Shown here: one piece after another, positions 3,851-48,012 of the stretch
How the letters are laid out: every line of letters starts with the position of its first letter
Numbering within the stretch: position 1 is the first letter of the stretch
Assembly: GCA_001598975.1 (NCBI GenBank)
Contig: BBXU01001113.1
Location: 1 to 64,000 of the forward strand
DNA length: 64,000 nt
Source: Parachlorella kessleri
Lineage: Eukaryota > Chlorophyta > Trebouxiophyceae > Chlorellales > Chlorellaceae
Direction: 5' to 3'
Made by a program: the position numbers and the translations under genes
The notes under the pieces: model-generated
Seen by the model: the letters and a program-made list of their open reading frames with translations, nothing else
Told to the model about the DNA's origin: nothing
The model's database searches: none

Positions 3851-4238
3851 CCCACTGCTGAGAGCTGGGCCTCAAGGAGGGAAGCTGTCATTGTGATTTG
3901 GTAAGGGTGACAGGTAATGCGGGTCAGAGAGGGGGTGTGGGCATACTGGGCTGCCAGAGCTGTATGCAGTTATTCTCTGTTACTTGTTGTATAGGGTCCA
4001 TCCTGCTGGTTGAGGCTGCACCATCCCCTTCACTTTCACAAGGAGGCTGATAGGGGGATGAAATTTGGCAGTCAGCAGACAGAGCTGGAGCAATGCAAGT
4101 GATGCCTCTAGTCTTGTAGACCGCCCTGTGCCTGGGCTGTCGCTTGTGCCAACCGCACCTCGCTGGCGCACCCTGGGGAGGCGCCTTGGTGCCCCGCCGG
4201 GATTCTGTTGCATTCATGCGTGTTTTATTTGTGGGGGC

Positions 4239-4243
4239 TGTAA
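4239..4243 (+). terminator. candidate TGTAA poly(A) signal of the ankyrin gene
   Basis: TGTAA, the usual chlorophyte polyadenylation motif, lies about 390 nt after the ankyrin stop codon. The motif is short and can occur by chance. Confidence 0.35.
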
Positions 4244-13900: not shown

Positions 13901-16877
13901 GTGCAGCCTTTGCTAGCCATGTGGTGGTCGACCCCCGGTTTTTCACCCAGTGTATGGACCTCTAGCGCCGCATGTTCTTTTCGGAGGTGGCTGCTTGTCC
14001 CAGGCTGATGGCAGGCATGCTGGAGGGACACCTTGCATGTGTCGGAGCAGGGTCGGAAGGATGTAGTGGCAGCCCTGCCGCCACACAAGCTGCTGAGCGG
14101 GAGTATGAAGCTATCGTGTGCAAGCCATGGACACACGCTGTGGACCTGGGGCCGAGGATGGTGCCGCCCTGCTGCCTTCTAGTCTAGTGTAGTCTAGTCA
14201 GCCTAACAGCGTACCGGTGCCCTCCTTCCCGGGTGCAGAGTAAGGAGAAGGTGCTAGCCAAGATGGTGCGGGAAGGGCTGACGGAGAAGGTGGAGGGCGA
14301 CAGGGTGGTGCGGTTCCGCTTTGAGAACGTCGGCAAGCTGCCGCCGCCGGTGAGTGCCTTGGACTCGAGAGGCTGCCGTCGTGGCGGTCTCCAGGTGGTG
14401 CAGCTGCAGGCCCTGAAGGCTTTCACAAACTTGCAGCTCAGCGAGGGGAGGGCCAGCATGGCTGGGGGCGGGGTGGATGTGGTCAGCCGGCCGGTGCTGA
14501 TGTGGCAGTGTGCAGGTCCTGCATCCGGCGTCTCCCTGCTGGATGGCTGCAGGATTCCTCGAGTTTGGGCTGCACTGTCGAGCTGCTGGTGAAGCCCAGA
14601 AGTGTGTGAACTGTGTTTCTGGCATGCGGCGCGCTAGGCATGACAGTGCTGAGCCGTGACTTGGGAGTGCCATCGCAGGTGCTGCAATTTACAGAGGTGG
14701 CGTTTGGGTACTCGCCAGACAAGATCCTGTATCGGAATGTGGACTTGGGAATCGACTTGGATTCTCGAGTAGCCTTGGTGAGCTGTTTGTCCCGTCTCTA
14801 AACTCCGCAGTGCATGTTTTTGGTTGGTGCCACCGCCTTCGGGCGCCATTGTCCTTGGGCTACGCTGTAGTCATCCAATCGTCTAGCGGCAGGGAGGTGC
14901 ACGGTAGTACCCAGCCGTGCGCCTGCAAGCGGCAATGGCTAGTGATGTGTTCTCGAAGGCATGCTACTTTAGGGATTGGACTGCGGCCAGTGCCATGGTC
15001 CGGTTGTTGGGCTTCAGTATTTCTTAACTGGAAGCCACTAATTTGACAGCTTGTTCCTCACAGCCAGCTGTCACCGCAAACCTGTCACAGGGCCGCTCCG
15101 GGCAGCGAACTTGGGCACGGCTGCTTCCGAGCAGCTGTGTAAGCCAGGGCTGCTGCATGGCTGATGGGGTGTGACCTTCCTCCTCGCAGGTGGGTCCCAA
15201 CGGCTGCGGCAAGTCAACACTACTCAAGCTGATGACAGGGGCCTTGGATCCTGTGGATGGCATGGTGAAGCGGCACAACCACCTCAAGATAGGGCAGTAC
15301 CACCAGCACCTTACAGAGCTCCTACCAATGGACCTGAACCCACTGGAATACATGGTAAGTTCGCCTGCGGTGTATGGCGAAGCTGCCGTATGTCACTTCT
15401 CCTTGAATGCTTCTTGCCCGACCGGAAGGGTAGGCGATTGTGGGCTGTGGTGGGGTGAGAGATGGGGAGCAGGCTGTGCTGCAACCAATCTTGCCATAGC
15501 ACCCCAGTGCGCCTGCACCTGCTGCTTCTGTTCAGCCTAATAAGTGTCTGCGCATTGCCGGCGACAGTCCGTGTCATCCCCTTCTTTGTCAGCACTGGCA
15601 AGTCTAGTTTAGCCTCCTCGACAGGTGCCACCCCCTGGCCTTGTGGCTCGGTGTGCCTGTGGCTCCATGTGCTGCCCATGGCAGCTGCTTGACTGCCCAA
15701 AACCAGGGCGAGAGGAGCGCACAGGTCATGACGCCTGAGCACTCTCAAGTTACCCTCTGACTACTCTGTGTTTCTCTTTGCAGCTGCGCGAGTTTGGGCA
15801 GGACCAGGGGGAGGAGAAGATGCGCTCCGCCGTCGGCCGCTTTGGCATCACCGGCCCTGCGCAGACGCTGGCCATGAGCAAGCTCTCAGACGGCCTCAAG
15901 TCGCGCGTGGTGTTTGCCTGGCTGGCGTTCCGCACGCCACACATGCTGCTGCTGGACGAGCCGACAAATCACTTGGATATCGAGACGATCGACTCGCTGG
16001 CGGAAGCCATCAACAGTGAGTGGAAGGGGCGTGGCGCGGCGCCTGAGCCTTGGCTGGGGGGTGGGCAATGCACACACAGAGGTGGCCTATTGCTTTCAGG
16101 ATAGTAGTAGTATTCTAGCTGGGACTAGCGTCAAGCCAGCCTATCGAGGGTGGAGCTCACCATGCTGGGGGGCTGTGCCTGCTGCATGCTATTGGTGGTA
16201 GGGGGCGGTGATGCCTGAAGATCTGTTCTTGTTAATGGTGGCAGGTAATGCGAACTGAGGAGAGGTAGGGGGTATCACACCGTTGTGGCTGACACAGTCA
16301 TGCTCTGGGGCTTGCCTGAGTTGTGTTCCGGTTGTTGCCTGCAGACTGGGACGGCGGGCTTGTGCTGGTGTCGCACGACTTCCGGCTCATCTCCCAGGTG
16401 GGTGAAAACACGCCTATTTGCAGCTATTTGCATTCCATGGCAAGCTGTGGTGCACTGGCCATCGTCAGTCGCTCCCGTGACTCCAACTCACAAACTCAGC
16501 TGCGTGGCCGCCCTGTGCCTCTGGCCCTGCTTATTACATGGGCTGGTTGAACGGCCTGAGCTTTGGCATTTTGTTCGCCGGCTGCCAGCGCCCCACCCAG
16601 TAGGCTAACCCCTTATGCCATCAGTAGCGGGTCCGTTGCCTTAGGAATTGCAGTGGAGCTCGGTGCTCGGCCTTGGCTAGGCAGCCATCTTGGGTGTGGT
16701 GTATGTTGGCGGGGAGAGAGCTGAGCTAACTTTACAATTTTCTTGGCGCAGGTGGCAAATGAGATCCTGGTAGTTGAGGGCGGGAAGGTGCAGCGGTGGA
16801 ATGGCGACATCCAGTCGTACAAGCAACATCTCAAGGCCACCAACGAGGCGCTCTCAAAGCGCAAGGACCTGCATTGA
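10933..16877 (+). CDS. ABCF1: ABCF1-type ABC protein (GCN20/ABCF subfamily, soluble twin ATPase)
   Basis: Eleven exons: 10933-11216, 11482-11736, 12429-12630, 13060-13195, 13737-13885, 14239-14349, 14679-14777, 15190-15354, 15784-16015, 16345-16397, 16752-16877; 603 residues, close to plant ABCF1 (about 595). A Lys-rich N-terminus is followed by two nucleotide-binding domains and no membrane span. NBD1: Walker [10 protein letters not shown] (101-109), signature SGGWRMR (215 on), Walker B/D-loop LDEPTNHLD (about 236-245). An ABCF linker with [17 protein letters not shown] follows. NBD2: GPNGCGKST (414-422), signature LSDGLKSR (501 on), [15 protein letters not shown]-switch [15 protein letters not shown] proteins act on ribosomes (GCN20/EF3-like translation control), not as transporters. 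In plant ABCF1 the NBD2 signature usually reads LSDGQ; here Gln is replaced by Leu505. The intron before 13737 carries a duplicated exon start (see separate entry). Confidence 0.96.
13648..13697 (+). pseudogene. duplicated, probably unused copy of the start of ABCF1 exon 5
   Basis: Directly after a good acceptor (cctgcag) this intronic stretch repeats the first 45 or so bases of the true exon at 13737. It encodes [13 protein letters not shown] against [13 protein letters not shown], with mostly synonymous differences. In the ABCF1 frame it reaches TGA at 13695-13697, and it has no matching donor. It is either a decaying exon duplication or a decoy/poison exon. Confidence 0.6.
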
Positions 16878-17862
16878 GACGGTCGCTGCATCAACCTCAG
16901 TGGCGTGTTAGGCCGGCCTCAGCGTGGGAACTTGCCCAAGCAAGGTGGCTTACATCTGGCAACAGCAAGGGTGCCGGCATTGCACTTCACGTTGGTTGCT
17001 GTCTCAACGCTTGGCTCTGGGTTGTTGGCTGTTTGGTGCTGTGGAGGGGCGGCTCTGTCCCTCTGTGCTTTGCTTGCCAGCATTCTCCTCAAATGTCCCA
17101 TGTCCCCGCTGGGCAGGTAGCTTAGGAGGTGGCGGCAGGTGTTAGGAGTGGTGAACCAGGTCCTAGTCCTCTCTACCTGGGCACTTGTAGTGGTACATCA
17201 AGAAATGCATGACTGTGACATTGAGATGGTTCAAAGTGTGGTTGGTCGGTGTGCAGGCACGGCATTGATACCTTGAGGGGGTGATTGAGCAAGTTTGTTA
17301 GCGCTGGTATCCACTTGTTATATCATTTTTCTTGGCTTCTTGACATTGCTTTCCGTGCTTGTGCTGACACATTTGATTCCAGTCACCTGCTGCACCTGTC
17401 TGCGTTTGCTTGGCTGGTTGGACGGCCCCGTAGCCTCTTGACACTGCAGTCCTATCTGTAACCACAGGTTGTTGGAGACGAAGAGTGATCAAGTCTTCCC
17501 CAAGCTTCGCAGTCACTTCAAAACCCTGCCGGGTTGGGGTCAGCTGCAATATGAAACGCACCCACCTGTTCAACCTAGGCAGCACTTCGTCCACCAGCTA
17601 CACAAGAAGTGTGGGGTGAGTTGGCTGGTGCAGTTTCTTTGCGCTTCAAGGCCACCCAGTGAGGCTGCTCACTGTCCCTCTCCTGTTCCTGCTCTGGACT
17701 CTCTGCTGTGTGGCGGCAAACCAGGTGTCAAGGCGCAAGAGTCCAGCTGGGCGCCCATGGGGCTAGATGGTTCAGCCAAGCACATCTGTTAGCAAGTGTA
17801 CTTACAAAAGGGAAGACATGAAGCTGGTTGTATTTTAGTGCGCCGTCGTTTGCGTGACCTTG
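16878..17862 (+). other. ABCF1 3' UTR and SDHAF4 upstream region
   Basis: About 1 kb between two genes on the same strand. A TGTAA at 17457-17461 is the likely ABCF1 poly(A) signal. The remainder would hold the SDHAF4 promoter. Nothing else was recognised. Confidence 0.45.
17457..17461 (+). terminator. candidate TGTAA poly(A) signal of ABCF1
   Basis: TGTAA about 580 nt after the ABCF1 stop codon and about 400 nt before the next start codon. Confidence 0.4.
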
Positions 17863-18839
17863 ATGACCACCTTGCTCCGTGCTGCAGCGCTTCAGCTGCG
17901 TCCGCAGTCTTTTGAGGCAGCACCAGCCTTGAGTCTTCAGACGTGGTTCGCCGTAAGAAGTGCCACCACCTCTGCGGCCAGCCCCGACCCCTTCACCCAG
18001 CAGCTGCAGCAGAAGACGGAGCAGGAGATTCTGGAACTCATAGAGAAGTCAAGAGCTGTCAAAGTTGCAGCCGGCCAGGCTGTGGAGGAGGAGCCAGCAG
18101 CTGTAGTTGAGGAGGAGCCTGAGGTGGGTTGCCCAACGCAGCGGTCATTCTTCTGTTGGGCACTTTAGCAGCTCTCGCGCAATAGAGCACGACTAGGCTG
18201 TCTTTTTTATTGCCTGTTGCGGGGTATGCTCTGGAACTTGCAGGCCTTGCAAGTGTGCATGGCCACAAGTTGAGGTGGTCGCGTTGTGTGGTCTTTGAAA
18301 CTGATACACCTCGTATGGCAACAAGCTGTGCATAGACGACTCATGGCGTCTGGCAGAGTGCCCTTACAACATAGTACTGTAAATGAGAAAGGGTTAACAA
18401 TTGTGGTGAAACCCGCTAAAGGTGCAAGCCTGCAGTTCCAGCTTTGGTAGCGCTGAGTTCTTGCAGTAGTGCTGCTGGTATACCAACTCTGTATCAGGGA
18501 TGGCTTATGCAGGACCGTAAGAGTGAGACAGGGGAGATTGGAGGTCCCAAGGGACCCGAGCCAACTCGCTTTGGTACGTACTGGGCTGTCTGCAAAGCAC
18601 CTGCACCTGCGGTTTATGGCTGGTGATGGTGTCCACGGCTGTATTTCCTATACCTGCCCACAGTTTGCTGACGGTGGTAGGCACTGCAAAGAGAGGTGCG
18701 ATAGGGGGTGAACTGTACTGACAGGGCTGGGTGCAGGATGCTCTGGGCTTGCCTCAGTTCTGTGTTGTTTTCACTTGCTGGCCTGCTGCATCGTGCTGCA
18801 GGTGACTGGGAAGTCGCGGGCCGAGCATCTGACTTTTGA
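17863..18839 (+). CDS. SDHAF4: succinate dehydrogenase assembly factor 4 (SDHAF4/DUF1674), mitochondrial
   Basis: Three exons: 17863-18123, 18513-18573, 18802-18839; 119 residues. The C-terminal signature is assembled exactly across two introns: SETGEIGGPKGPEPTRF joins GDWEVAGRASDF and the stop. The family hallmark is GGPxGPEPTRYGDWE...G..DF at the extreme C-terminus. The N-terminus (MTTLLRAAALQLRP...) is basic and lacks acids, as in a mitochondrial targeting peptide, and is followed by an acidic linker. SDHAF4 binds flavinated SDHA in the matrix, protects it from autoxidation and promotes SDHA-SDHB assembly in complex II. I chose the ATG at 17863; the in-frame GTG nine bases upstream is not a eukaryotic start. 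Confidence 0.93.
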
Positions 18840-32018: not shown

Positions 32019-35000
32019 ATGGAGCTCTTAGCTTGGGGGCGTTCCAACCCCATACATGCGCTAGTTGCCGTGCTTGGTACCGCACTTGTTGGCGTAGTGT
32101 CCCTACCGCTGCTGGCGAGCCTCCTGGTGCTATCACTTCCTGTGCTGGTCCCCGCTCTGGCCTTCGTTGTGGTAAGTGCAAAGTTGCTGTCGTCTAGTTG
32201 ATGTTTGCACAGCGGAAGGGTAATTGGCAGCACCTGCCGCACTTGCAGGCGATAGGCTACTTAAATGCGGGCAAGTACGCTAGCCCAACAGCAGGTACTC
32301 ACTTTGGCTTGCCCATGATCCCTGCCCAGCTTGTGCCTTTGAGCCTCTGCATGCAATCTGGTGTTTGTGTTTATGCCTAGATTGTTAATGTCTCAACGAG
32401 CCTGCAGACCGGGCGTGACGGCAGCTGGTTGACCAGCTTGGTGCCAGCCGCCCTGACTGCTGCACAAGTGCAGGTGGGGCTACCACAGTCAACGGCCAGG
32501 CCAGGGACGCCACTCCCAGCAGCAGCGCTGTAGAAGCGAAGCCTGAGGCTGTGCAAGGAGCCAGTTCAGCGTCATCGGCGCCTAGCCTGCCACAAGTAGC
32601 GAAGGAGGCAGCCGTGCCCAGCAAGCCTGGCCCCGAGGCTGGTGAGGCTGCCACAGCCAGCGTCCCAGCGCCACTAGTGGTGGAGCAACGGGCAGCAGCG
32701 CCTGGTCCAGCATCCAAGGAGCCTGAGGCTGCCAGCACAGTGGCAGGAGTTGCGGAAGGCGGGTATAAGTCATGGGCGGACCCAGTGAAGAAGTCGGCAG
32801 CCTTTGGCGAGCTGGAGGCGCTGATGAAGGAGCGCATCATCTTCATTGACGGCGCCATGGGCACGCAGATACAAAAGTACAGGCTGCAGGAGGCGGACTT
32901 CCGCGGCGAGAGGTGGGTGAAGCATGTGTAGTGCTGTCCGCTGCAATTCGTGCCGTGGGAGGGAGCCCCTTTGTGTACCAATATGTGCTTCATTGATATA
33001 TAGAGCCACCCTCTTTGCTTGTGGTTAGTATTTGACTTTGCTCTTGTTAGTAAGGGTGGCAGGTTGTGCGCATGGAGAGAGACGGACAGTACTGACAGGG
33101 CTGGACGCAGAAATGCTCCTCTGTCTTGCCTCTGTGTGTTGCATGGTGGACCACTGGCAGCCACTGGGTCTAAGCATCTGGCTTAGCACCGCAAGAGACG
33201 GTGTTTAGGAGTTCTTGCTTACGTATTCTGCTGCTGCACCTTTTCTGATTGTGCCCCAGGTACAAGGACCATCCGCACGAGCTGAAGGGCAACAACGACC
33301 TGCTGGTCGTCACAAGGCCCGATGTGATTGAGGCCATCCACACCGCTTACCTGGAGGCGGGCGCGGACATCATTGAGACCAACACCTTCAACGGCACGCG
33401 CGCCTCCCAGGTGTGACCGACATACCAGGCACATTGGCAGCAGCTTGCCCAGCAGGACTGTGTCAGGTGGAGGGCGGGGTTTCGTATCCATACTGTTCTT
33501 GTGTCCTTGTGAAGTGCTCGGCAGCACAGTCTCGCGGCACCCAACCTCATGTGGAAATCATATGTGCAAGCTCCAGGTGAGGACAGTTGTAAGACATGTA
33601 AGTCCGACTGTTGAACGCCTGCAGTCCGACTACCAGCTGGACCAGCTGGAGGAGGTACGGCTCATCAACATTGAGGCTGCCCGGCTGGCCAAGCGCTGCA
33701 CTTCCGCCTACATGGCTAAGCACGCCGGCAGCAAGAAGTTTGTGGCGGGCGCAGTGGGGCCCACGAGCAAGACGCTGAGCGTGTCACCCTCCGTGGAAAA
33801 TCCAGCCTTCAGGTGATGTATTTGTTTAGCTTTTGATGCTCGGGGGGTCGTAAAAATAGTAGCCACTGGTCAGCCGTATTGGACACCAGTCTATGCTTCT
33901 CAGGTCTGCATTACTGTTTTGTAACCTTCGATGAACAAGGCCGGTCTGCCAGGTAGTCTGTGCCCCGCAGGTGAAAGGACCTGTTTCGGTACTCCATAAG
34001 CTCAACATAGTCACTTGCCTGCAAACTTGTGTAGGGGTGTCACCTATGATGAGGTGGAGGCGGGGTACTATGAGCAGGTGGAGGCGCTGTACGATGGCGG
34101 CGTGGACTTGTTCCTGGTAGAAACCATCTTTGACACCCTCAACGCCAAGGCCGCACTGTTCGCCCTGGAGCGCTTTTTTGCTGAGAAGGTAGGTTTGCTA
34201 GAGACTAGTGTGAAGCTGCACTTTGTTTGAGTATTCCCTAGGTGTCCAGGAGATACATACACAGCGCTCTGTTGGGCTCAGCATGACGGGTTGTGCACAT
34301 GAGTTTGAGGCGGATGCTGTACAGTAAGGTTCACTTCAAGGTTAGGAGGTGGTATGCATGATGAACCTGCTAAGAAATGTTGTCAACGAAGACTAGATTA
34401 GATTAGATGTGTGCTGCAGGGCGTGCGCATCCCTGTGTTTGTGTCGGGCACCATCGTGGACAACTCAGGCCGCACGCTGAGCGGGCAGACCAACGAGGCT
34501 TTCTGGAACAGCGTCAGCCACGCCAAGCCCCTGGCAGTGGGCCTCAACTGCGCCCTGGGCGCCAGCGATATGAAGAAGTATGTATCCAACCTGTCAAGCT
34601 GCGCGGACTGCTATGTGTTCTGCTACCCCAACGCCGGCCTGCCCAATGCCATGGGTGGCTACGACCAGAAGGGCCCTGAGATGGCTGAGGAGATTCGTCC
34701 CTTCTGTGAGTGGCCACGTGATCGGATCGGTGTCTGGCATCTGCATTAGCACATGTACCAGTCACTATCTACATCTGATAGCACCAGCATATGCATCCTT
34801 ATGCCTGGGAAGAGTCACCCGTTGGCTGTGTGGGGTGCTGTCAATACCAGCCGGCATGGACTTCGGTGCGGATAGATGTTCAGCTACCTGTACAAAATAC
34901 ATCTGGCCGCACATTAATAACTTAATGAGAGCTTGCCTGTACTAGGCGATGCAGGCGAGGAGGGCCTGGTTAATGCCATTGGCGGCTGCTGTGGCACTGG

Positions 35001-38000
35001 CCCTGAGCACATTGCCGCCATTCGGGAGATGGCCTTGGCCTACCCGGCGCGGCCGTGCCATGCTGTGCATGAAGTGATGCGTCTGAGCGGCCTGGAGCCC
35101 CTCAACTATGCGCCCAACACAGCCAACATGCGCGAGACCTTCCTCATGATTGGAGAGCGCTGCAATGTGGCTGGCTCCATAATTTACAAGAAGGCCATTG
35201 TGGATGGCGACTATGATAAGGCTGCCCAGATCGCTCTGCAGCAGGTAGACTGTTGTAGCTTGGCATGATTGCTTTGTGAAGCAGCTGCAGGGCATGTGCA
35301 AACAGCTACAGCCAGGCTGTACTTCTTCGTACCTGGTTCCTGACTTGCTGATTTGCGATAGCCCCAGTCAGTACGCTTGCCATTGTAGATTTGTAGCCAA
35401 GGCCTTCACACGTTTTTGGGGTGATTGCGGCTTTTTGGCAGTTTAACTGGGAGTTTCTCTTTCCTAGGTGTGGTGACTGTCAGTTGTTGTATGCAGCTTT
35501 GGGAAGTCTGGCAGGTGGATGGTAAACAGCTGGCAGGTTTCGTTGCTGGCATGTCGCTTGCGTGGTACTGATATTGCTATTTATGTTGGCGCTGGAGGTT
35601 GTAACGGACGTGTGGCCACATTGTTTGTGCAGGTGAACCAGGGCGCGCACGTGCTGGACATCAACATGGACGACGGGCTAATCGAGGGTGTGGGAGCCAT
35701 GACCCGCTTCGTGAACCTGCTGGTATCTGATCCCGAGATCTCCAAGGTGCCCTTCATGATCGACTCCTCCAAGTTCCATATCATCGAGGCAGGACTCAAG
35801 TGCTGCCAGGTGAGGAAAATTGATAACATAGTTGTAGTATTCACTGCTGGCAAGTTGGCTTGCATGATGGTGTGAAAGGCATGGTTGTTACTGCCTTGCT
35901 TGTGGAAGCCTTGCAGGGCCAGTGAAGAGCTTTCACCGGTTTAGGGAGAAGCAGCAACCTATGTTTTGCTTGGGGCTCTTTCATATTGTTGCATGGCGGC
36001 ATGCTGTAAATGAGTTCAAGTTTGATGGTTTGAGTTCTGGTGTGATCTGGTTGGAAGGCGGCTGACTGAGGGCAGCCCCGGGTAAGTTACGCTGCTTCCG
36101 TTGCTGCAGGGCAAGTGCATCGTGAACAGTATCAGCCTGAAGGAGGGCGAGGAGAAGTTCAAGCAGCAGGCCCAGATTGTCAAGCGTCATGGGGCCGCCC
36201 TGGTGGTCATGGCCTTTGACGAGGAGGGGCAGGCGGCAACTCGTGATGAGAAGGTGAGCAGGGGTTGTGAGGGTTCCTCAGCGCTGTTGTTCAATTTTGC
36301 AAACCATGCATGGGCGAGGCGCCACGCGGTCAGTGTTGCTTCAAAAGCTGTGCTGTGATTTCCGTTATCTTGCTTGGTACTCCCAACAGAGACCGGTTCA
36401 CTTGCTCCTCTTGTGCAGCTTGGGTGATTGGATACATAAGCCCAGCAGCATCGCTCACCAGCAGTCCCTTGCATTCATATCCTCTGCCAGGGATCCAGGG
36501 TGTCTTAGCCTTGGAGCCCATGCACCCTCGTTTGCTATGGTTGTTGCAGGTGCGCATCTGCCGGCGTGCATACCGTATCCTGGTGGAGGAGGTGGGCTTC
36601 AACCCCCAGGACATCATCTTTGACCCCAACATTCTCACCATTGGCACCGGCATGTCGGAGCACAACAACTATGCGGTGGACTTCATTGAGGCCACAGCTG
36701 AGATCAAGAAGGTCTGCCCTGGCGCCAAGATCAGGTCAGCACTGCAAATTGTCAGGATGAGTATGGCATGGCTTTCCACCTGAGCACCGGCCTTGCCTTA
36801 ATGTGCAGTGAATATGCTGAGTGTGGGGTTGCAGCATTGTAGTGTGATGGGCCTTGAAGCAAGGAGCTTGGCAACTAGTGCAAGGCCTGCGAACCCTCTC
36901 TGGGTTGGCCCCTGACTGACTTGCTGAATGTGTGTGGTGCAGTGGCGGCGTGTCCAACATCGCCTTCTCCTTCCGCGGCAATGAGCCCGTGCGGCGTGCC
37001 TTCCACTCGGCCTTCCTGCACCACGCCTGCAAGGCGGGCATGGACATGGGCATCGTCAATGCCGCGCAGGTGCCCAGCCTGCCTTTGGAAGGATGCTATG
37101 ACTCGTAATTTAGAACTTCGTACAATGAATCTTCGCTGCTGGCTGATTGATCATGCAGTGGCGTACATGTGCTGACTCGAGAGTCCTTGAGGGCACGTGG
37201 CCTTGTATATCTGGTGCTGTCCACACTGTGTTAGCCTCCACTGCTTGGCACTTCCATTCCCCTGGGGAGAAAAGGGGCTCCAAGGCTGCCGTGACTGCAC
37301 CTGCTGCAGGTCCAGGCGGACGTGTATGAGAAGATCGACAAGGAGCTGCTGGGGTATGTGGAGGATGTGCTGCTGAACAGGCGGGCGGACTCTACCGAGC
37401 GCATGCTGGAGTATGCGGCCACGCTGGACCCCAAGAGCAAGCCCACCGCCGTGCGGAAGCTGAACGCTGAGCCGGAGGTGAAGATCACTCCCAGGCTGAA
37501 CCCGCTGCCAGCTGGCGTGGACCCGCTGGCGCCAGACGCTGACCTGCCGCCGGTGCCAGCTTACAAGCGCTGGGAGGACCCGGTGAAGAAGTCGGCAGCC
37601 TTTGGCGAGCTGGAGGCGCTGATGAAGGAGCGCATCATCTTCATTGACGGCGCCATGGGCACGCAGATACAAAAATACAGGCTGCAGGAGGCAGACTTCC
37701 GCGGCGACAGGTGAGTGAATCAGTGCGTGTGTGGTGAGGGGAGGCATGCGGGAGTGCTGGTGGCTGCACCAGTAGCTTGAGGGAGGACACCCTTGTGCTG
37801 AAAAGAACGGGCTACAGTCCTGCATTGGGATTCCTATGTGTTGTGATTGAGTGCTTCACCTCGTCACACTGTCGAGGGTTTGTCACCCATATCACACTGC
37901 TGTAGCCCGCTGGACCATTCCTAGCAAGCTGGGCTGTTTGTAAGCGGGGCCACAGCAAGGCACGAGGGGTGGTTTGGAAGGGGATCCCCCTGGGCAAGGT

Positions 38001-41000
38001 GGTCTCATGTTGCCCCTGACTGTGCGCCAGGTACAAGGACCACCCGCACGAGCTGAAGGGCAACAACGACCTGCTGGTCGTCACAAGGCCCGATGTGATT
38101 GAGGCCATCCACACCGCTTACCTGGAGGCGGGCGCGGACATCATTGAGACTAATACCTTCAACGGGACGCGCGCCTCCCAGGTGTGACCGAAATACCAGG
38201 CACAATGACAGCAAGCTTGCCCAGCTGTTGCAGGGCTATTCATGGACGAAAGATGAGCTTTGGCTTGTTTCTTGGTTCTAGGCGGCCATGATCGGCAATA
38301 CACCTTTGAACTGTTTGGAGGTGGCAAACCCCAAACGGAGGACGCTGCACATGACAGATTGCTGCTACTCCTCGACGCCTGCAGTCCGACTACCAGCTGG
38401 ACCAGCTGGAGGAGGTCCGGCTGATCAACATTGAGGCTGCACAACTGGCCAAGCGCTGCACGGCTGCCTACATGGCCAAGCACCCCGGCAGCAAGAAGTT
38501 TGTGGCGGGCGCAGTGGGGCCCACGAGCAAGACACTGAGCGTGTCACCCTCTGTGGAAAACCCAGCCTTCAGGTAATGCATTTGTTTAGCTTTTCGATGC
38601 ATGGGGTCGTCAAAACAGTAGCCACTGGTTAGCACTTTTGACAGCTGATGGACACCAGTCTATGCTTTTCCCATCCCCAGGCTTAAATGGTTCTTTGTAG
38701 GTTACGATAAACAAGGCCACGTCTGCCAGGTATGTGGGCCCGCAAGTGCCAGGCCTTGTTTCAGATGTTTGTAACCTCAACATAGTTACTTACTCGCAAT
38801 GCTTGTGTAGGGGTGTCACCTATGATGAGGTGGAGGCGGGGTACTACGAGCAGGTGGAGGCGCTGTACGATGGCGGCGTGGACCTGTTCCTGGTGGAGAC
38901 CATCTTTGACACCCTCAACGCCAAGGCCGCACTGTTCGCCCTGGAGCGCTTCTTTGCTGAGAAGGTGGGCTGGCCTTCTGGCATACACCTATGTGCATGG
39001 AACGCAAAACAAGCCAAGCCGGCTGTGGTTGTGGTTGTGGCTCGGTTGAGTTTGGTGTGCCTACGTAGCCCCTTTTCGTTTCGGCAAGCTTTATGTTTTG
39101 CAGCATCTGAAAAGTTGACAGCTCCGGGTCTGTGGACTTGGTGGGTGCATTTGTGCCGGTCCATGCTCTCTTACGAGGGCGATGCCACCTTGTTTCCAGT
39201 TTGACAGGTTGGCGTCAATCTTCTCAAAGGGAGTAACCACACAGGAACGTGGCAATGACCGAGGGGGGTCCCCTCTTCTGCTGGCCTTGGAATGGAAGAT
39301 AGCGCCATCATTGCAAGAGCCTTGTCTGCTTCGCAGGGCGTGCGCATCCCTGTGTTTGTGTCGGGCACCATCGTGGACAACTCAGGCCGCACGCTGAGCG
39401 GGCAGACCAACGAGGCTTTCTGGAACAGTGTCAGCCACGCCAAGCCCCTGGCAGTGGGGCTCAACTGCGCCCTGGGTGCCAGCGATATGAAGAAGTATGT
39501 GGCCAACCTGTCAAGCTGCGCGGACTGCTACGTATTCTGCTACCCCAACGCCGGCCTGCCCAATGCCATGGGTGGCTACGACCAGAAGGGCCCTGAGATG
39601 GCCGAGGAGATCCGCCCCTTCTGTGAGTGGCCACGTGGCTGGCCCAGCATATGCCCACGTATGGGATCTGTTCACACCCCACATTGGTGGTTGCGTAGTT
39701 GCAGCGTGCAAGATACGCATGTATGTTGAAGATAGCATTCGCTTTTGGGAGATGCGCATGACATCTACTCAGAAGCTTTTGTGTGTGAGGTGTCTTTGTT
39801 TTTAAAACAACACAACTGCTGTTGAAGACTCAATTTGGGCATTCCAGGTGCTTGACCCAGTCTCGTTAAATTGGTGCAGGTGAGGAGGGCCTGGTGAACG
39901 CCATTGGTGGCTGCTGTGGCACAGGCCCTGAGCACATTGCCGCCATTCGGGAGATGGCCTTGGCCTACCCGGCGCGAAAGTGCCATGCTGTGCCTGATCT
40001 GATGCGCCTGAGCGGCCTGGAGCCCCTCAACTATGAGCCAGATGGCGCTAGCATGCGCCAGACCTTCCTGAACATTGGCGAGCGCTGCAACGTGGCTGGC
40101 TCTATAATCTACAAAAAGGCCATTGTGGCCGGCGACTACGACAAGGCTGCCCAGATTGCGCTGCAGCAGGTGAGCTGCTGCGGCTGTCATTTGTGCAACG
40201 ATGGGGCGTTGGCGTAAGGACTGCAGTAAGGGCAGAAAGTGCTGCTCGCCTACCAGCGGCACTGTCTGCGTTGCCTGCTCAAATTGCAGAGTGTGGGGTT
40301 GCCGGTGGGAATTTAGCCATGCCTAGCACTTCAGTCTCCCATCCTTTCACCCTGGCTAGGAGCAATTCAGTGCATGGTCTTGCGCGCCTGAAGGCCTGCA
40401 CTTGTGCCTATGGTAGCCCTATGCCGTGACAACATGGATGGCTCCTTGCCATGTTGCACCTTGTGCGAGGGCAGGTGAACCAGGGCGCGCACGTGCTGGA
40501 CATCAACATGGACGACGGGCTGATCGAGGGTGTGGGAGCCATGACCCGCTTCGTGAACCTGCTGGTATCTGATCCCGAGATCTCCAAGGTGCCCTTCATG
40601 ATCGACTCCTCAAAATTCCACATCATCGAGGCAGGACTCAAGTGCTGCCAGGTATGTGCTCCAGGGCGTGCTGAGTGTTATTGCCTGCATGACATTGCGA
40701 AATGGGTACTATGGGGGCGAACAGTGCTCTCAGCATGGTTGGCAAATCATTGTTTACAATGGCCAAAAGCGTGACATAGCGTTCCAGCTTCCACCCTTGC
40801 TTGTTCTTGTACCTTGCTGTGTCATGGGTTTGTAACATAAAGCTGGCCCCTGGGTCGGGACCCTTATAGCCAAACAACGACTGGGCATGGGTGCAGGGCA
40901 AGTGCATCGTGAACAGCATCAGCCTGAAGGAGGGCGAGGAGAAGTTCAAGCAGCAGGCACAGATTGTCAAGCGTCATGGGGCCGCCCTGGTGGTCATGGC

Positions 41001-44000
41001 CTTCGATGAGGAGGGGCAGGCAGCCAGCTATTCGGAGAAGGTGCGGTAGTGTGTGGTCATTTTTGGGTCATAGCGAGTGCGGCAGGCTGCCATGGCAAGT
41101 GTTGTATGAGTGCCCACATAGGTGTAAAGGCCTCGAATGCATTGGCCTAGCGTTCCATGGGCAGCGCAGGAATAGATTCGGCATGGACGCAGAACGCTTA
41201 CGCTGGTCATTAGGTGAGCGCCTGATACTGTCCTGACCGCCTGTAAGAACTTGCACGTGCAGGTGCGCATCTGCCAGCGGGCGTATCGCATCCTGGTGGA
41301 GGAGGTGGGCTTCAACCCGCAGGACATAATCTTTGACCCCAACATCCTCACCGTTGGCACTGGCCTGTCGGAGCACAACAACTACGCGGTGGACTTCATC
41401 CGCGCGACCCGCGAGATCAAGCGGCAATGCCCTGGCGCCAAGATCAGGTGAGTAAGTTACATGTCGTTGCTGCGGCTTAGGGTTACCTGTTGCTTTCGGT
41501 GTCTGACCCGCAAGTGCTGCTGCTGGATTTGCGGCACGCTGCTGCGGCTCAGGGTTGCCCTAGTGGAGGTTCTAACCCGCATGTGCTGCTGCTGGATGCG
41601 CGGCACGCTGTCTTGGTGGCTGACATGGGCAGCCAGTGTGGCGGCAGGCTGCAAGCCTTATCTGGGACGAAGAGCCCAGCCTGCTTTGGAGAAGTTACAT
41701 TGTGTATGGGGGTTGCTTAAACTACAACTGAGGTACCTCTTCTATGTGCAGCGGCGGCGTGTCCAACATCGCCTTCTCCTTCCGCGGCAATGAGGCCGTG
41801 CGCCGTGCCTTCCACTCGTCCTTCCTGCACCACGCCTGCAAGGCCGGCATGGACATGGGCATCGTCAATGCCGCCCAGGTGGGCGGCGTCAGCTACCTCC
41901 CTTTCTTATATGAAATGTTCCCCACCTTCGTTCTAAGCCACCCCAATGGCAGCCGCTCTTTCTCTCCAGAGACCCACGCGGTCCACCCGCCCACCAACCC
42001 ACTGACACTGCTGTTGCCTGCCAGCTGGCCTGTGCTGGACCGTGTCCGGGCTTGGTTGGTGGCATGGTATATATCTGGTATTGGGCGCTGAGCTCTCTGA
42101 GGAGAGGGAAGTTGAAGCTCTCCGCAGATCTATCAGCAGCAGTGTGTGTGCCAGCCCTTAGGGGGAGAAGCTCGTACAAATGAACCTACCAGAGACAATT
42201 CAGGCAGCCAGCTCAGCATAACATGCTTGCTGCAAGGAATTGCAGGTCATTGCTGACGAGTACTCTAAGATTGACAAGGAGCTGTTAGAGTTTGTGGAGG
42301 ATGTGCTGCTCAACCGCTGCGAGAATGCGACTGAGCGTATGCTGGAGTATGCGGCCACGCTGGAGCCCAAGTGCAAGCCCACAGATGTGAAGAAGAAGGG
42401 GCAGGGCGTGGGAGCAGATGCCAAGAAGCAGGTGCTGCGCGGTGCCTGTGCTGTGTGTGGTGCGTGGGTAGCGCCGGGCTATTTGATTGACGTGCGTACT
42501 GTATGGAAGACTTGTGTGTCGCTCATGGCCCTGGTAAGGTTGAGCGCCTGTACCTCCGCCTGGCGCACTGTTTACACGGCAAGAGCAGTCTAGTCTAGTC
42601 TTATTTGGTGCCATGATGAACACTGCACTCTGCCTTGCCCTGCTGCTGCTTGCAGGGCCCATCCTGGCGCGAGCTGGCAGTTGAGAAGCGTATCGAGCAT
42701 GCGCTGATCAAGGGCATTGACGAATTTGTCGTGGCAGATACAGAGGAGGCGCGAACTTCCGGGCGCTACCCAGCCCCTCTTAATGTGAGTGCACCTGGTG
42801 TGTGCGCGCCTTCTGGGAGGGTTGCTGATGACATATCTTGGCTAGCCGAAGGGCCCTTTAACGCTATGTCACCAGCGGTGGCAGCTGTCTTGGTGTCGTC
42901 TTATTGTAGAGCGCTGCAGGGTGCCTGCACAGTGAGGGGAGCTGGCAACAGCTTAGGAACTATTTAAGCAGCTATCCTTAGCCTTTAGGAGTAAGGAAGC
43001 CCATCGCGCTTTCTGTCTGCTGCAGGTGATTGAAGGACCCCTCATGGATGGCATGAATGTGGTGGGAGACCTCTTCGGTGCCGGCAAGATGTTCCTGCCG
43101 CAGGTAGGAGTGACTGCAAGCCGCAGCAACTCACCATATCTACATGGACCTACTCTCCTGGTCAGCCCTGCTAAACCCTTTGCACCAGCCTGCACTATGA
43201 CCTCCTATCTGCGCGGTTTTGCTAGTTGCAAACGGCGCTGTGCTCCCTAGGCAGTCTTTCAGTGTGGTGGTGTACCGCCCTGGTACAAACTGTGCCTGGC
43301 TCCCCCACCTGCGCCAGGCTAGGGCATACCTTGTTCTCTGTTCACATTAAAGGCTGCTGTGGCCCCAAGTTCGCCATGCCACAGTGATGGGCATGCTTGC
43401 CTGTGGTGCCACTGCAGGTCATTAAGTCCGCTCGCGTGATGAAGCGGGCGGTGGCTCACCTCATCCCGTACATTGAGGAGGAGAAGCTTAGGACTGGTAG
43501 CACTGGCAACGACAACGCGGGGGTCATCATCATGGCCACAGTCAAGGGCGACGTGCACGACATTGGCAAGAACATCGTGGGCGTGGTGCTGGGCTGCAAC
43601 AACTTCAAGGTGTGGGCGGCTGGGATGCGTCAGTGGCGTGGTTGTGGGCTGGCAGGGCTGCTGATAAAGTCAATACCATGCTCTATTAACTGATGCAGCT
43701 AGCACCCGCCAAACTGCTGTCTCACCCCTTCTTGTCATGTGCATCCCATACTGAATACGAGATGTACTAAAATGCCAAGGGTGGTTGGTAGCTAGCAAGC
43801 CCTGGGTTCAGACGGACAGCAACCCGCTGTTTCTCAGCTTATCCTGCCAATATTGAAGGTTGCCCACCTTTGTCAGGTTTGTGAGAGGGGTTTGCGAGAT
43901 GAGGGGTTAGGCATCCATATCACCTCCAACCCCTCGTGCTACAAAGCAGGTGATAGACCTGGGGGTGATGACGCCCTGGGACAAGATCCTTGCGGCTGCC

Positions 44001-47000
44001 AAGGAGCACCAGGCCGACATCATCGGTCTCAGCGGCCTCATCACTCCCAGCCTGGATGAGATGGTCACAGGTGGGTGCAGGCACAACCCAGCGCAACACT
44101 GTGTTAATGCGCCACCTGTGTGCAGTGCTGTGCAGGATTATGTAACAGGATAGTGTGGAGTGCAGCGTGCTTGCAGCAATGGCGTGCAAGCGACATCAGC
44201 TACATGAGGGTTGTATCCTCCCAATTGCAGTTGCCAAGAAGATGGAGGAGCAGGGCCTCAAGCTTCCACTGCTTATCGGCGGGGCCACCACGTCCAAGAT
44301 GCACACTGCAGTCAAGATCGCGCCCCAGGCAAGAAACGATGGCAAGGGTGGCACATCTCATTGGCCAGAGCAGTGTGTGGGCGAGAGCAGCTGCTGCTGG
44401 AGGGTTCCGCTCAGCTTGGAAGCTCTCAAGTACAATTGTCTCAAATGACGCCTTGCATTTTCATGAAAAAACCGTGCGCATGCACGCACATACACCATAT
44501 TTTTGAGCCAGTACCGTGGTTGTGCTAGCTTGCTTACATACCTGGCTTCCTGGCTGCCTGTGTGGCTGCAGTACTCTGGCCCTGTGGTCTACGTTCTGGA
44601 TGCCTCTCGCTCCGTGCCCGTGGCCCAGGCGCTGCTGGACCCCAAGAACAAGGTGGAGTTTGCTGACGACATCAGGTGGGGGACACAGAGACTGTCGCGG
44701 GGGCAGTGTTGAGCATCAGTGGGGGAGTGCGAGATTTCTGGGCTGTAGAGTCGCTGCGTCAGTCAGTGGCTCACCGCACCGGGTTTTTGGTAGTTTTCAC
44801 AAACCTTGTGTGCTCGTTCCTTCGTACGTATAAGGGAACCTGATGTCCTCCTATCGGCACCTGACTCTTTCTCCTGCCTCCCTGCTGGGCGGCCATGATG
44901 GTAAGGCTTGCCTGCATGGTTGGCAGTCAACTACTGGGCCTCCCTGTCGCCGACCTGCTGCAGGGAGCAGTACGCCGAGATGCGTGAGGAGTTCTACTCA
45001 GGGCTGGAGGATCGCAAGTACCTGCCATTGCCGGAAGCCCGGAAGAAGGCATTGCAGGTAGGGGTCCAGAGCCTACACCAATGTGGATACACTGCTTAGG
45101 CGAGGTGCCGATACCCCGGTACTGCCGTGCTGACTATGGACCTTACCATCTTGCTGTTAGGGGCGCTTGCTAAAACTAGCAATCCACAAAAAGGCAGTGC
45201 TGGGCGCCAATCGTCCTGCTGCTGCCCGTGCGCCGGCGTCTGTCTAGCCTCCTTAAAAGCCATTCCTTGCTCCTGTGCCCGTCGGTAGCTGGACTGGAAG
45301 GACCCCGCCCTGAGGCCCGTCGTGCCGCGCCTGCTGGGGACCAAGGCGTATGTCGACTTCCCCATCGAGGAGGTGCTGCCATACATTGACTGGAACCCCT
45401 TCTTCCAGGTGAGAACCAGCCCTGCGTTGGGAGGGAGTAATGGGGGGAGGGTGCAGTACACTTCTGTCACTCCTGGCGCAGTACACTTCTGGCAGGGCTG
45501 GCATGGGGCGGTGATGGTGGTTGTGGAGCAATCCCAGGGCTAGTGAAGCCTGTCTAGGGGTGGTCGGTGGTTGCTTGGTGCGATAGGGTGCCACATTGCG
45601 GTCGAGTGGCCTGCGGACGGCGCATGGCCTCTTCTATCCTCTGTGTGGGCAAATACAAATGGAGCGGTGCCGATGACTGGAGTGGATGGTGTGAGTGCTG
45701 GTGTCTTGTGAGGCTGCAGGTGTGGCAGCTCCGTGGCCGGTACCCCAACCGCGGCTACCCCAAGATCTTCAATGATGAGGCGGTGGGTGCGGAGGCCAAG
45801 AAGCTGTTTGAGGAGGCCCAAGTCGTGCTCAAGGTGGGTGCTATGAGCTGGTGCTGGAGCTTGCGCTGTGAGCCGGGAAGTTGAGAAGTAGCACCTGCGT
45901 ATGCGTGCCTGCGTAATCCTCAAATTTTGATGGTGTTTCCAAGCGAAGTGCTATATGTACGCGAGGGGATTGAAAGCTGTCCTACTTTCCTGTTGAAGGC
46001 AGCCTGCCGGCTGCGATGTGCCTGTACCTCTGCTGTTCAGCAGACACCGGAGAAGCTTTCTAAAAGTCTCAGCCGCCATGATTTCTCCCACCAAGGACAT
46101 GTTCTCTCTCAAAAGGTTCTTCCTCCCTTTCTCCTGTGTGCAGGAGATCGTAGAGGCGAAGTCCCTGCAGCTGGTGGGCATTGTTGGCATCTACCCTGCC
46201 AACGCCGCCGGTGACGACATTGAGGTGTATGCGGACGAGGCCAGGGCCGAGGTGGTGAACAAGTTCTACGGCCTGCGCCAGCAGGTGAGGGTGCCGGGTT
46301 GCGTTGCAGGCGCTGCCTGGAAAAGCCGGCTGGGGAGTTGGCTGATATTCTGGGACGGGTGGTAGCTGTATATCGTGATGCCCTGTTGCATGAGCATGGT
46401 TTTTAAGCTCCGTCCGAACCAGCAGCAGCGTTTGTGGAAGACCTGCTGATGGAATGCAGTGGTTGCATGCATGCATGTCCTGCTGCTATCAGCAAGTGCA
46501 CCAAGTATACTACTTGTGTGTGCACGTGTGTTTCCCCAGGCTGAGAAGGACACTGATGAGCCCTACCACTGCCTATCGGACTTCATCGCCCCCAAGGAGA
46601 CTGGCATTCCTGATTACCTGGGCCTCTTCGCCAACGCAGGTGTGGTGGTGACAGTACCATAGCAAGCCAGTGTGGTGACAGGCTGGTTTTATTTGCTTGC
46701 AGTACCTTGCATGCCTGCCAGGCTACAACTCCTGCATGGGATTCTTCCGTTACCAAGGCGCGGGCTCGGCACCTTGTCACAAATCACCAGCTCAGCGGGT
46801 CATGCAATATGCCGCCCTGTGGCTTATCTGGCATTGTCATACAAGCCCGACCCCTGCTTGCCACCGCTCCTCTGTGTGCGTGCACCAGACGCTATGCGGG
46901 TGCGCGAGCGTTGGCAAACACCTCTGGCTGTGCAAGTGTTGTATGCCTCTTGCTGTGCCCTGTTGCAGCCATGGGCGTGGACAAGCTGGTTGCCAAGCAC

Positions 47001-48012
47001 AAGGCTGCTGGCGACGACTACAGCTACATCATGACGGAAGCCATCGCCGACCGCCTGGCAGAGGCCTTTGCCGAGAAGCTGCACGAGCTGGTGCGGCGGG
47101 AGCTGTGGGGCTACGCCAAGGATGAGGACATGAGCGTGGACGACATGCTGAAGGTCAAGTACCAGGTGGGTGGCCGGCTGGAGGCGAGAGGGGCTGGCCA
47201 GCGTGGCCATGTAAGAGGGTGGTGCAGCTTGGCGCTTGGCGAGGGTTTCTGGTTGGAGTCTGTTGTGGCCTGCCCTAGGGTTCACAAGGAGCTTCAGGGA
47301 GATTTAGCAGGGCCCCACGATGTGCTGGGGTGGCCACAAGGTTACACAAGTGGCCTTGCAGATCATACTTACCGGTCTGGAAGTACTACGTCTTTGGAAT
47401 GTGTGCCCCTTGAAGTACACAGGAAGAGTTATGGATGTTGGTTATGTGCGCAGGGCATTCGCCCAGCGCCTGGCTACCCCTCGCAGCCCGACCACACAGA
47501 AAAGCGCGCAATGTGGGACCTCATGAAGGTGGAAGAGCAGGTGGGGCGATACCCTCAACAATTTGCTTGGTGTGCATTAGACTCCTGGGGCTCCTGCCGC
47601 CGCCTTCAGTGCTGCTGGTGCAGGCAAGGTCACCCCCTGGTGTGCCATCTTCACACAGGCTACCATGCAGCCCTGCATTTGCGGTGAGGAGAGCCGATGA
47701 GAGTGTTGTGTAGGTGGTCGCTGTAGGACTTGGTGCGCAGCCACCGTTATTTATGTGGCACATGCAAAGTTGTGTGAGTGTGTTTCCCTTGCCCTGCCTT
47801 CACCCCTCCAGGTGGGCATGCGGCTGACCGAGTCGCTGGCCATGATCCCGGCCGCCGCGGTGTCGGGCCTGTACTTTGCCTCGCCCCAGGCACAGTACTT
47901 TGCCGTGGGCAAGATCACTCAGGACCAGGTGGAGGACTACGCGGCCCGCAAGAAGATGCCTGTGGAGGAGGCGGAGCGGTGGCTCAGGACCATGCTGTCC
48001 TACGAGCCCTGA
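32019..48012 (+). CDS. METH: cobalamin-dependent methionine synthase with tandemly duplicated homocysteine/folate module and hydrophobic N-terminus
   Basis: 37 exons, 2134 residues (usual MetH about 1230): 32019-32171, 32249-32294, 32474-32912, 33260-33410, 33625-33812, 34035-34188, 34420-34705, 34955-35244, 35633-35809, 36110-36253, 36550-36734, 36943-37069, 37310-37710, 38031-38181, 38385-38572, 38811-38964, 39337-39622, 39880-40169, 40475-40651, 40897-41040, 41263-41447, 41752-41878, 42246-42431, 42656-42784, 43026-43103, 43418-43609, 43950-44070, 44231-44328, 44572-44675, 44964-45057, 45289-45408, 45720-45833, 46144-46284, 46540-46639, 46969-47165, 47454-47540, 47812-48012. Order: hydrophobic 12-50; Pro/Ala/Glu linker to 165; unit 1 (homocysteine + pterin) 167-830; linker; unit 2 870-1540; cap and B12 domain (DVHDIG, axial His1659; [18 protein letters not shown]); AdoMet activation domain (RPAPGY at 2042). 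Zn cysteines GLNC/GGCC are intact in both units: 421/484/485 and 1122/1185/1186. It transfers methyl from 5-methyl-THF via cobalamin to homocysteine. Exons 1-2 are assigned by phase; no ATG precedes the conserved start of unit 1 in exon 3. Confidence 0.93.
32771..37454 (+). repeat. methionine synthase duplication, unit 1
   Basis: First copy of a roughly 4.8-kb genomic segment coding for the homocysteine and pterin domains plus the first helices of the cobalamin cap. Its nine complete internal exons measure 151, 188, 154, 286, 290, 177, 144, 185 and 127 nt. Proteins of the two copies are nearly identical; intron starts are alignable in places (33813 on against 38573 on). Confidence 0.93.
37569..42390 (+). 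repeat. methionine synthase duplication, unit 2
   Basis: Second copy, offset 4798 nt at its start, with the same nine internal exon lengths and phases. It is followed by the unique cap, cobalamin and activation exons. Introns differ clearly from those of unit 1 in sequence and length, which argues against an assembly collapse or duplication artefact. Confidence 0.93.
41470..41610 (+). repeat. tandem repeat of about 70 bp in a methionine synthase intron
   Basis: 41470-41541 and 41542-41610 share ctgcggct.aggg near the start and gtgctgctgctggat.. with cggcacgctg at the end. The repeat lies in the intron of unit 2 that precedes the exon at 41752; the equivalent intron of unit 1 lacks it. Confidence 0.7.

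Follow-up and report, generated by a model that had tools for sequence, protein, structure and literature searches.

The window, that is, the whole 64,000-nucleotide stretch of Parachlorella kessleri DNA that was analyzed, contains a gene for a B12-dependent methionine synthase (MetH), termed METH, at approximately 32019 to 48012 on the + strand. The domain plan of its product is [Hcy-Fol]-linker-[Hcy-Fol]-Cap-Cob-Act, all in one frame. The parts are listed below with reference to P0010, which is the annotated product of this gene in another P. kessleri assembly.

32019..32171, + strand: probable first coding exon (provisional), with an open frame between the ATG and a gtaagt donor; it encodes a hydrophobic N-terminal segment without charged residues, the last 12 residues of which are not shown here; many green METH proteins have a similar N terminus.
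32521..32912, + strand: exon with an Ala/Pro-rich spacer, then the start of the unit 1 Hcy barrel (Hcy from 32833); 5' edge not fixed, perhaps 32425.
33260..37069, + strand: unit 1, nine exons with the remainder of Hcy-1, ending at 35073, and most of Fol-1 (35140 to 37387), placed by exon pairs and domain borders.
37310..37710, + strand: junction exon of 401 nt with the end of Fol-1, an 81-residue linker (37388 to 37630) conserved in green algae, and the start of Hcy-2 (from 37631).
38031..41878, + strand: unit 2, nine exons with lengths and phases as in unit 1, placed by exon pairs; Hcy-2 and Fol-2.
42246..42431, + strand: exon with the end of Fol-2 (to 42323), then a 36-residue tail ahead of the Cap domain.
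42656..44673, + strand: single Cap and cobalamin-binding region with the motif GDVHDIGKN; B12-binding_2 and B12-binding occur once each in P0010 (Pfam).
45289..48012, + strand: single activation (AdoMet) domain up to the stop codon; Met_synt_B12 occurs once in P0010.

From 32521 to 48012, 35 exons joined into 2052 codons with no internal stops, and the introns were GT-AG in 33 of 34 cases and GC-AG in one. The single open frame of 2134 codons described in the initial annotation corresponds to these plus 82 codons upstream, where the first exons are uncertain. Nine exon pairs of equal length (151, 188, 154, 286, 290, 177, 144, 185, and 127 nt) were found as that annotation had reported, each flanked by consensus splice sites, with 85.9 to 97.7% identity between the paired exons of units 1 and 2. 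The zinc Cys residues also lay where it had placed them (421/484/485 and 1122/1185/1186), and its reading of the gene as encoding one cobalamin half fused to two complete Hcy/Fol units in a single protein held. The NCBI model P0010 uses a different 5' exon, and the start at 32019 is favored as the probable one because relatives have a similar hydrophobic N terminus. A hydrophobic N-terminal hairpin was common among green METH proteins in a comparison of 49 hand-picked green and 11 stramenopile proteins. At gathering scores, Rfam gave no matches within the 64-kb window.

The window translation and P0010 agreed letter for letter from P0010 residue 21 on (100% identity and coverage). Pfam identified S-methyl_trans (PF02574) and Pterin_bind (PF00809) twice each in P0010, and B12-binding_2 (PF02607), B12-binding (PF02310), and Met_synt_B12 (PF02965) once each. 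All the elements of a METH were present, namely, an Hcy barrel with three zinc Cys, a pterin (methyl-THF) barrel, a Cap/cobalamin domain with the DxHxxG motif, here in GDVHDIGKN, and a C-terminal AdoMet activation domain. All 13 matches to the cobalamin half in the P. kessleri genome fell within the METH gene (E 1e-3). The domain order is that of canonical MetH/MTR (4ccz; Thermus 8g3h and 8ssc), with an Hcy barrel carrying three zinc Cys, Fol, Cap/Cob, and Act, and unit 2, the sole unit used as query, matched residues 1 to 630 of 631 of 4ccz, which is the human enzyme according to the available text of PMC13376404. The usual rule of one copy of each domain per chain, which is not strictly defining for MetH/MTR, is broken by the presence of Hcy and Fol twice and of Cob and Act once. 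Unlike canonical MetH/MTR, tandem METH carries the N-terminal half two to four times ahead of one C-terminal half, with a conserved linker, and the P. kessleri protein fits this class in that its complete units are joined by the 81-residue linker of its group. A separate PF01717 (MetE-like) locus is also present in the genome. The cobalamin-independent MetE likewise consists of two related tandem barrels, attributed to an old duplication in the part of PMC539065 available, but it belongs to another family and lacks a cobalamin half.

Units that are 86 to 98% identical per exon can mislead assemblers and gene finders, and the repeat might in principle reflect a duplicated assembly or two adjacent genes fused on paper, which we consider extremely improbable. 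The junction between units 1 and 2 is coded in one uninterrupted exon, and the paired introns have diverged: 8 of 10 aligned at 61.8 to 68.8% identity, compared with 61.1 to 66.9% for shuffled copies (scores exceeding the shuffled ones by 0.8 to 4.3 SD), and clear alignment between units was confined to introns 2 and 3 (73 and 80%). The window contains no letter N. The identical protein P0010 is encoded on a 3.93-Mb contig of another assembly, compared with the 119,956-base contig of the window. Assembly doubling is thus unlikely, given that most paired introns align about as well as shuffled ones and that the second assembly has the same protein. Many other genomes also encode multi-unit METH, and P0081 and P0128, which bear MMETSP transcript names, are two-unit proteins. 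On the junction exon, the diverged introns, and the second assembly, both an assembly artefact and two separate genes were rejected; the artefact reading is strongly disfavored.

The initial annotation knew of no described MetH with this layout, but the layout is not singular. A search for relatives near 2100 residues recovered such METH proteins, and two to four complete Hcy-Fol units were present in 153 of 229 fetched proteins, a share inflated by the three protein searches, each comprising the best 120 of about 8000 scored and ranking multi-unit proteins first, as scores add. None of the 229 had a second complete B12 or Act domain. The holders were chlorophytes, Chlorokybus, Mesostigma, diatoms, a pelagophyte, and labyrinthulids. 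Database entries P0004 to P0009 (Chlorella sorokiniana, Trebouxia, Chlamydomonas incerta, Volvox, and C. eustigma), labeled methionine synthase or hypothetical protein, contain three units. Among complete proteins, METH had a single unit in 30 of 74 green-like and 4 of 36 stramenopile-like cases (last unit nearer Parachlorella or nearer Nitzschia, respectively), some of which may be collapsed or cut gene models; this count covers only proteins starting with M and having clean full domains (110 of 229), near-identical ones included. The METH models of Chlamydomonas reinhardtii, Aureococcus, and some Trebouxia were visibly damaged. Assemblies and gene models can lose or merge METH units.

No second Hcy-Fol unit was found at 80 bacterial MetH loci, the best of at least 594, picked nonrandomly by likeness to eukaryotic METH; 71 had one intact Hcy-Fol-B12-Act open reading frame (ORF), 6 had the same split over two ORFs, and 3 had a split hit or an additional Hcy ORF standing alone. 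The tandem-unit plan of green-algal METH was not found described in the open-licence papers searched, and METH repeats are not mentioned in the available part of PMC12803021. The nearest precedent found is a remark by Bromke and Hesse (2015; PMC4523565) on doubling of the MetH/pterin-binding domain in Phaeodactylum tricornutum METH (Phatr2 23399), which the accessible text treats as a mutation-duplication of a single diatom that still requires verification; that text contains nothing on green-algal repeats, three or four units, the linker, or concerted evolution. The 2,280 nt given there for P. tricornutum amount to 760 codons, near the 753-residue repeat of Nitzschia P0132.

The positions scored were hand-picked from motifs of the family, and only 1 of 29 differed between P. 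kessleri units 1 and 2 (position 351, also variable in the last units of other proteins); a dead first unit was rejected at the sequence level, the motif residues being kept. Redundancy was reduced by the last unit alone, at 95% identity, leaving 136 of 153 proteins; of their 153 upstream units, 152, 152, and 150 kept the three zinc Cys, respectively. Among the 26 other motif positions, 21 were kept in 152 to 153 of the 153 upstream units and another in 146; the remaining four are variable in last units too. Of 616 columns, 232 were conserved in last units. First and last units differed at 2460 places, 115 of them within these 232 columns; the first unit was the odd one in 87 of the 115 and the last in 28, with three proteins supplying 58 of the 87. 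Damaged zinc sites in the first unit were restricted to 3 of the 136 proteins (P0155, P0204, and P0183), and a zinc Cys was changed in the last unit of P0175 only. Nearly all METH units look catalytically intact, judging from these residues.

Units were more alike within their own protein than to the units of other proteins in 34 of 38 hand-picked multi-unit proteins, consistent with concerted evolution; the exceptions were C. eustigma, P0011, C. reinhardtii (a tie; damaged model), and P0155. In a tree of 26 units from 13 species, every first/last pair was sister with bootstrap 100. Ancient units diverging by position were rejected (first units as one clade, p-AU 1.5e-87). Unit number also differed among close relatives, with two in Chlorella vulgaris, three in C. 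sorokiniana, and one in C. variabilis, and in one alga, or near strains, METH versions of 2144 aa and 1439 aa occur, 2 of the 6 pairs compared matching at 180/180 N-terminal residues. The strong homogenisation within each protein, the shifts between one and three units in Chlorella, and these long and short versions would fit a reading of the extra units as catalytically competent passengers, idle with this cobalamin, whose copying and likeness are due to gene conversion and unequal crossing-over. We consider this unlikely. Frequent tandem recombination should also yield and fix single-unit genes, yet two or more units are widespread in both groups; the linkers are near-constant in length and conserved in sequence; and several diverged first units (P0011, P0002, P0057, P0199, and P0014) still match their own last unit at 26/26 key positions.

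Green-like linkers had a median length of 82 residues (interquartile range [IQR], 81 to 83; range, 64 to 162; 73 linkers in 58 proteins) and stramenopile-like linkers a median of 130 (IQR, 129 to 134; range, 71 to 140; 80 linkers in 78 proteins), with the sequence conserved within each group. That each group has its own conserved linker, of about 82 and about 130 residues, suggests two ancient origins of tandem METH. A P(x)PxY stretch was present in 64 of 73 green-like linkers. Together with the hydrophobic N terminus of many green METH proteins, this stretch would fit a role of the repeat in regulation or assembly, either through unit-skipping isoforms or through dimerisation, folate-enzyme channelling, or membrane placement by the upstream unit. 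Since paired exons have equal length and phase, a transcript joining exon k of unit 1 to exon k+1 of unit 2 would stay in frame, and in the available text of PMC4523565 the second P. tricornutum copy lies within a 2,280-nt in-frame "intron" with ESTs. The zinc and pterin-site residues kept in upstream units, however, exceed the needs of a scaffold, and we consider this explanation fairly improbable.

The favored reading, held at roughly even confidence, is that the upstream halves function as working heads with one cobalamin in common. Each unit would bind homocysteine and methyl-THF, and the single cobalamin domain, on a flexible tether, would move to any head that carries substrate. With several heads to each cobalamin, cob(I)alamin would be likelier to find a Fol barrel with its substrate in place, as would methylcobalamin an Hcy barrel, and each scarce B12 would turn over more and spend less time as oxidisable cob(I). 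In the available text of PMC13376404, the Hcy and Fol N-terminal half of human MTR is a rigid block with a flexible tether to the C-terminal half, the modules adopt many orientations with Cob moving ∼50 Å, and cob(I) oxidation occurs about once per 2000 reactions. Recombination between near-identical units may shift copy number between one and four, and selection would tend to keep more than one.

Some observations count against shared heads. Single-unit METH proteins exist, so one head suffices, and the layout was absent from the 80 bacterial loci, though marine bacteria meet low B12 too. Labyrinthulids are nonphotosynthetic, and the few proteins listed above have damaged zinc sites in the first unit or a changed zinc Cys in the last. 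Moreover, homogenisation alone would keep residues alike, so that the conserved residues of upstream units count as independent evidence only in part. We put forward more tentatively, as somewhat doubtful in its entirety, that multi-headed METH is a standing algal design of one cobalamin with two to four substrate halves that arose at least twice (green lineage and stramenopiles), in which recombination keeps the units alike and selection keeps them multiple, giving more turnover and less oxidative loss of scarce B12 in oxygen-rich cells, with green METH also tethered to membrane or lipid by a proline-knot hairpin. METH sets the algal need for B12 and is thereby at the root of B12 exchange between algae and bacteria. 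If multi-headed METH is indeed the enzyme of Chlamydomonas, Volvox, Chlorella, and many diatoms, kinetic models built on E. coli or human MetH may not fit, and it may be asked whether turnover per cobalamin grows with head number.

As to how the units are kept alike, the idea that only exons are homogenised did not hold in that form, introns 2 and 3 being alignable too. Given these introns, and differences at 49 of 298 four-fold sites between the P. kessleri units, codon bias and partial conversion tracts are both possible sources of the likeness. METH is a clear natural example of concerted evolution within a single protein-coding gene, across the green and stramenopile radiations.

The initial annotation read METH, at about 32019 to 48012 (+), as a methionine synthase gene with two units, each a homocysteine barrel (Hcy) plus a pterin barrel (Fol), and this model was upheld by nine exon pairs of equal length, a single open frame and an uninterrupted junction exon. 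In the window, the nine pairs had consensus splice sites on both sides and 85.9 to 97.7% identity. From 32521 onward, 35 exons joined into one frame of 2,052 codons, with intron borders that were GT-AG in 33 cases and GC-AG in one. The units were connected within one exon:

37310 to 37710, forward strand: junction exon of 401 nt, coding unbroken for the end of Fol-1, a linker of 81 residues and the beginning of Hcy-2

P0010, the protein annotated for METH (Parachlorella kessleri, N2152v2_002123, 2,099 aa), contained the Pfam domains S-methyl_trans and Pterin_bind twice each and B12-binding_2, B12-binding and Met_synt_B12 once each. All 13 genome matches to the C-terminal half (cap, cobalamin and activation domains; Cap/Cob/Act) fell inside METH alone (E 1e-3). 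P0010 was 100% identical across the whole query, with an annotated start not the same as that initially proposed, and is encoded on a 3.93-Mb contig rather than the 119,956-base contig of the window; hence, a second assembly has the two-unit layout too. A plain assembly duplication of the unit was also disfavored by the mostly diverged paired introns: 8 of 10 showed 61.8 to 68.8% identity, against 61.1 to 66.9% in shuffled copies, with scores 0.8 to 4.3 SD above shuffled, while introns 2 and 3 aligned clearly between units (73 and 80%).

Relatives were collected in three protein searches (229 proteins, given P numbers), a redundant pool favoring multi-unit proteins, so that counts are not frequencies. 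At least two complete Hcy-Fol units were found in 153 of the 229 listed proteins (two in 137, three in 15 and four in one). Split gene models provide further cases beyond these 153, such as that of Bryopsis, with four Hcy domains and one broken Fol match. None of the 229 had a second complete B12 or activation domain. Multi-unit proteins occurred in chlorophytes (Chlorella, Micractinium, Nannochloris, Myrmecia, Trebouxia, Botryococcus, Chlamydomonas, Volvox, Dunaliella, Haematococcus, Bryopsis, Ostreobium and a pedinophyte), streptophytes (Chlorokybus and Mesostigma), diatoms (Nitzschia and Epithemia), the pelagophyte Chrysophaeum and the labyrinthulids Mucochytrium and Hondaea; P0081 and P0128, both with two units, are entered under MMETSP transcript names. 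Green algal relatives near 2,100 residues, proposed as a check, were present, for example the 2,144-aa entries P0038 to P0046. Among complete proteins, a single unit was found in 30 of the 74 green-like ones and in 4 of the 36 stramenopile-like ones (last unit nearer to that of Parachlorella or Nitzschia, respectively). As a control, no second Hcy-Fol unit was detected in 80 bacterial MetH loci (the best 80 of at least 594), one of which (L092) had an additional lone Hcy ORF upstream. Entries P0038 to P0046 (two units) and P0093 to P0101 (1,439 aa, one unit) come from one green alga or near strains, with 180/180 N-terminal residues alike in 2 of 6 compared pairs; either assembly collapse or unit-number polymorphism could account for them. 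P0225, a partial two-unit entry named Sphagnum compactum, a moss, was placed with stramenopile units in the tree, and its label is probably due to contamination.

The initial annotation knew of no described MetH with this layout; none was found for green algae in open-licence papers, but a doubling had been remarked in Phaeodactylum tricornutum. In the accessible text of Bromke and Hesse 2015 (PMC4523565), the nearest printed remark found in the open-licence literature, a doubled MetH/pterin domain lies in a 2,280-nt in-frame "intron" and verification is asked for. Repeated units were not mentioned in the accessible portions of four algal METH or folate papers (PMC11439496, PMC6451014, PMC10828217 and PMC11302038). 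The multi-unit plan is therefore a MetH variant new to description, as judged from open-licence papers, and is present in public green-algal entries.

Thirty-eight multi-unit proteins were picked by hand for comparison; in 34 of them, each within-protein pair of units was more alike than any unit was to another protein's, mostly at 94 to 100% identity, with the nearest outside unit at 75 to 98%. The exceptions were C. eustigma, P0011, C. reinhardtii (a tie, in a damaged model) and P0155. Units grouped mostly by species in a 102-unit tree, and in a 26-unit test, 13/13 first/last pairs were sisters with bootstrap 100, and a single clade of first units was rejected. Such likeness could mean that units were duplicated repeatedly or that they evolved in concert. 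The linkers, conserved in length and pattern per group, favor concerted evolution. Green-like linkers (73 from 58 proteins) had a median of 82 residues (IQR, 81 to 83; range, 64 to 162) and a common pattern, DPLAP...LPPVPxY, present in Chlorokybus as well; stramenopile-like linkers (80 from 78 proteins) had a median of 130 (IQR, 129 to 134; range, 71 to 140) and a different shared pattern. The simplest reading would be one origin per group followed by homogenization. Unit 1 of C. eustigma fell outside the clade of its own units 2 and 3 and the UWO241 units in the 102-unit tree, as would be expected of a doubling older than the split between the two. Mesostigma P0065 and Closterium P0158 share a similar extra N-terminal segment before the Hcy barrel (PF16561 in the search); P0065 has it a second time within its linker of 162 residues, and the segment was therefore duplicated along with the unit.

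Across 153 upstream units from 136 proteins (non-redundant at 95% identity on the last unit), the three zinc cysteines were retained in 152, 152 and 150. At 26 other motif positions, 21 were retained in 152 to 153 units and one in 146 (five gaps), and the remaining four were variable in last units as well. Units 1 and 2 of the window differed at one of 29 motif positions, Met for Asn at position 351, a Met found in 12/153 upstream and 8/136 last units. First and last units differed at 2,460 places, 115 of them within 232 conserved columns (of 616), where the odd residue was in the first unit 87 times and in the last 28 times. P0155, P0204 and P0183 contributed 58 of the 87; their first-unit zinc cysteines were changed with the last unit intact, and they may represent faulty gene models or truly decaying heads. 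Homogenization keeps units alike, which weakens conservation as a test; still, first units 10 to 21% off the last unit (P0011, P0002, P0057, P0199 and P0014) agreed at all 26 key positions compared.

In human MTR, according to the accessible text of PMC13376404, the two barrels, Hcy and Fol, make up a single rigid N-half with a flexible connection to Cap-Cob-Act, and a distance of about 50 Å between barrels must be covered by Cob. The repeated piece of P. kessleri METH corresponds to one such N-half. Judged from sequence, the likeliest arrangement is a single Cob domain able to use either N-half. Several heads would provide more loaded heads per cobalamin, which could shorten the life of cob(I) and so reduce oxidative losses.

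A strongly hydrophobic stretch preceded unit 1 in 35 of 49 green proteins, among which the window model and P0010 represent one gene and P0001 and P0012 were measured on the wrong stretch, versus 0 of 11 stramenopile proteins. In the window it corresponds to:

32019 to 32171, forward strand: uncharged hydrophobic N-terminal segment, also seen at the N-termini of P0003, P0023, P0041, P0064 and others

The segment is absent from the NCBI model; the start proposed at 32019 is supported, as its exon codes for a hydrophobic stretch like the N-termini of relatives. In green METH proteins it often spans about 37 to 48 residues with an [ASTLV]PxxxP motif, which was inside the longest uncharged run in 19 of the 35 (shuffled runs: mean, 2.7; maximum, 8; 200 trials); a twentieth protein, P0008, had it solely outside that run. 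The motif is reminiscent of the oleosin proline knot, and the segment suggests a membrane or lipid-droplet hairpin.

Elsewhere in the genome, exons at 14148 to 18095 (+) of contig C994 matched PF01717, a MetE-like locus besides METH, so both kinds of methionine synthase, B12-dependent and B12-independent, are probably present in P. kessleri. A separate PF02574 gene at 3093 to 4440 (-) of contig C855 is probably a stand-alone homocysteine S-methyltransferase. Neighboring ORFs in the window were as follows:

13346 to 14008, forward strand: match to an ABC-transporter linker domain, PF12848
19061 to 20389, reverse strand: match to the PRP39 HAT-repeat family, PF23241
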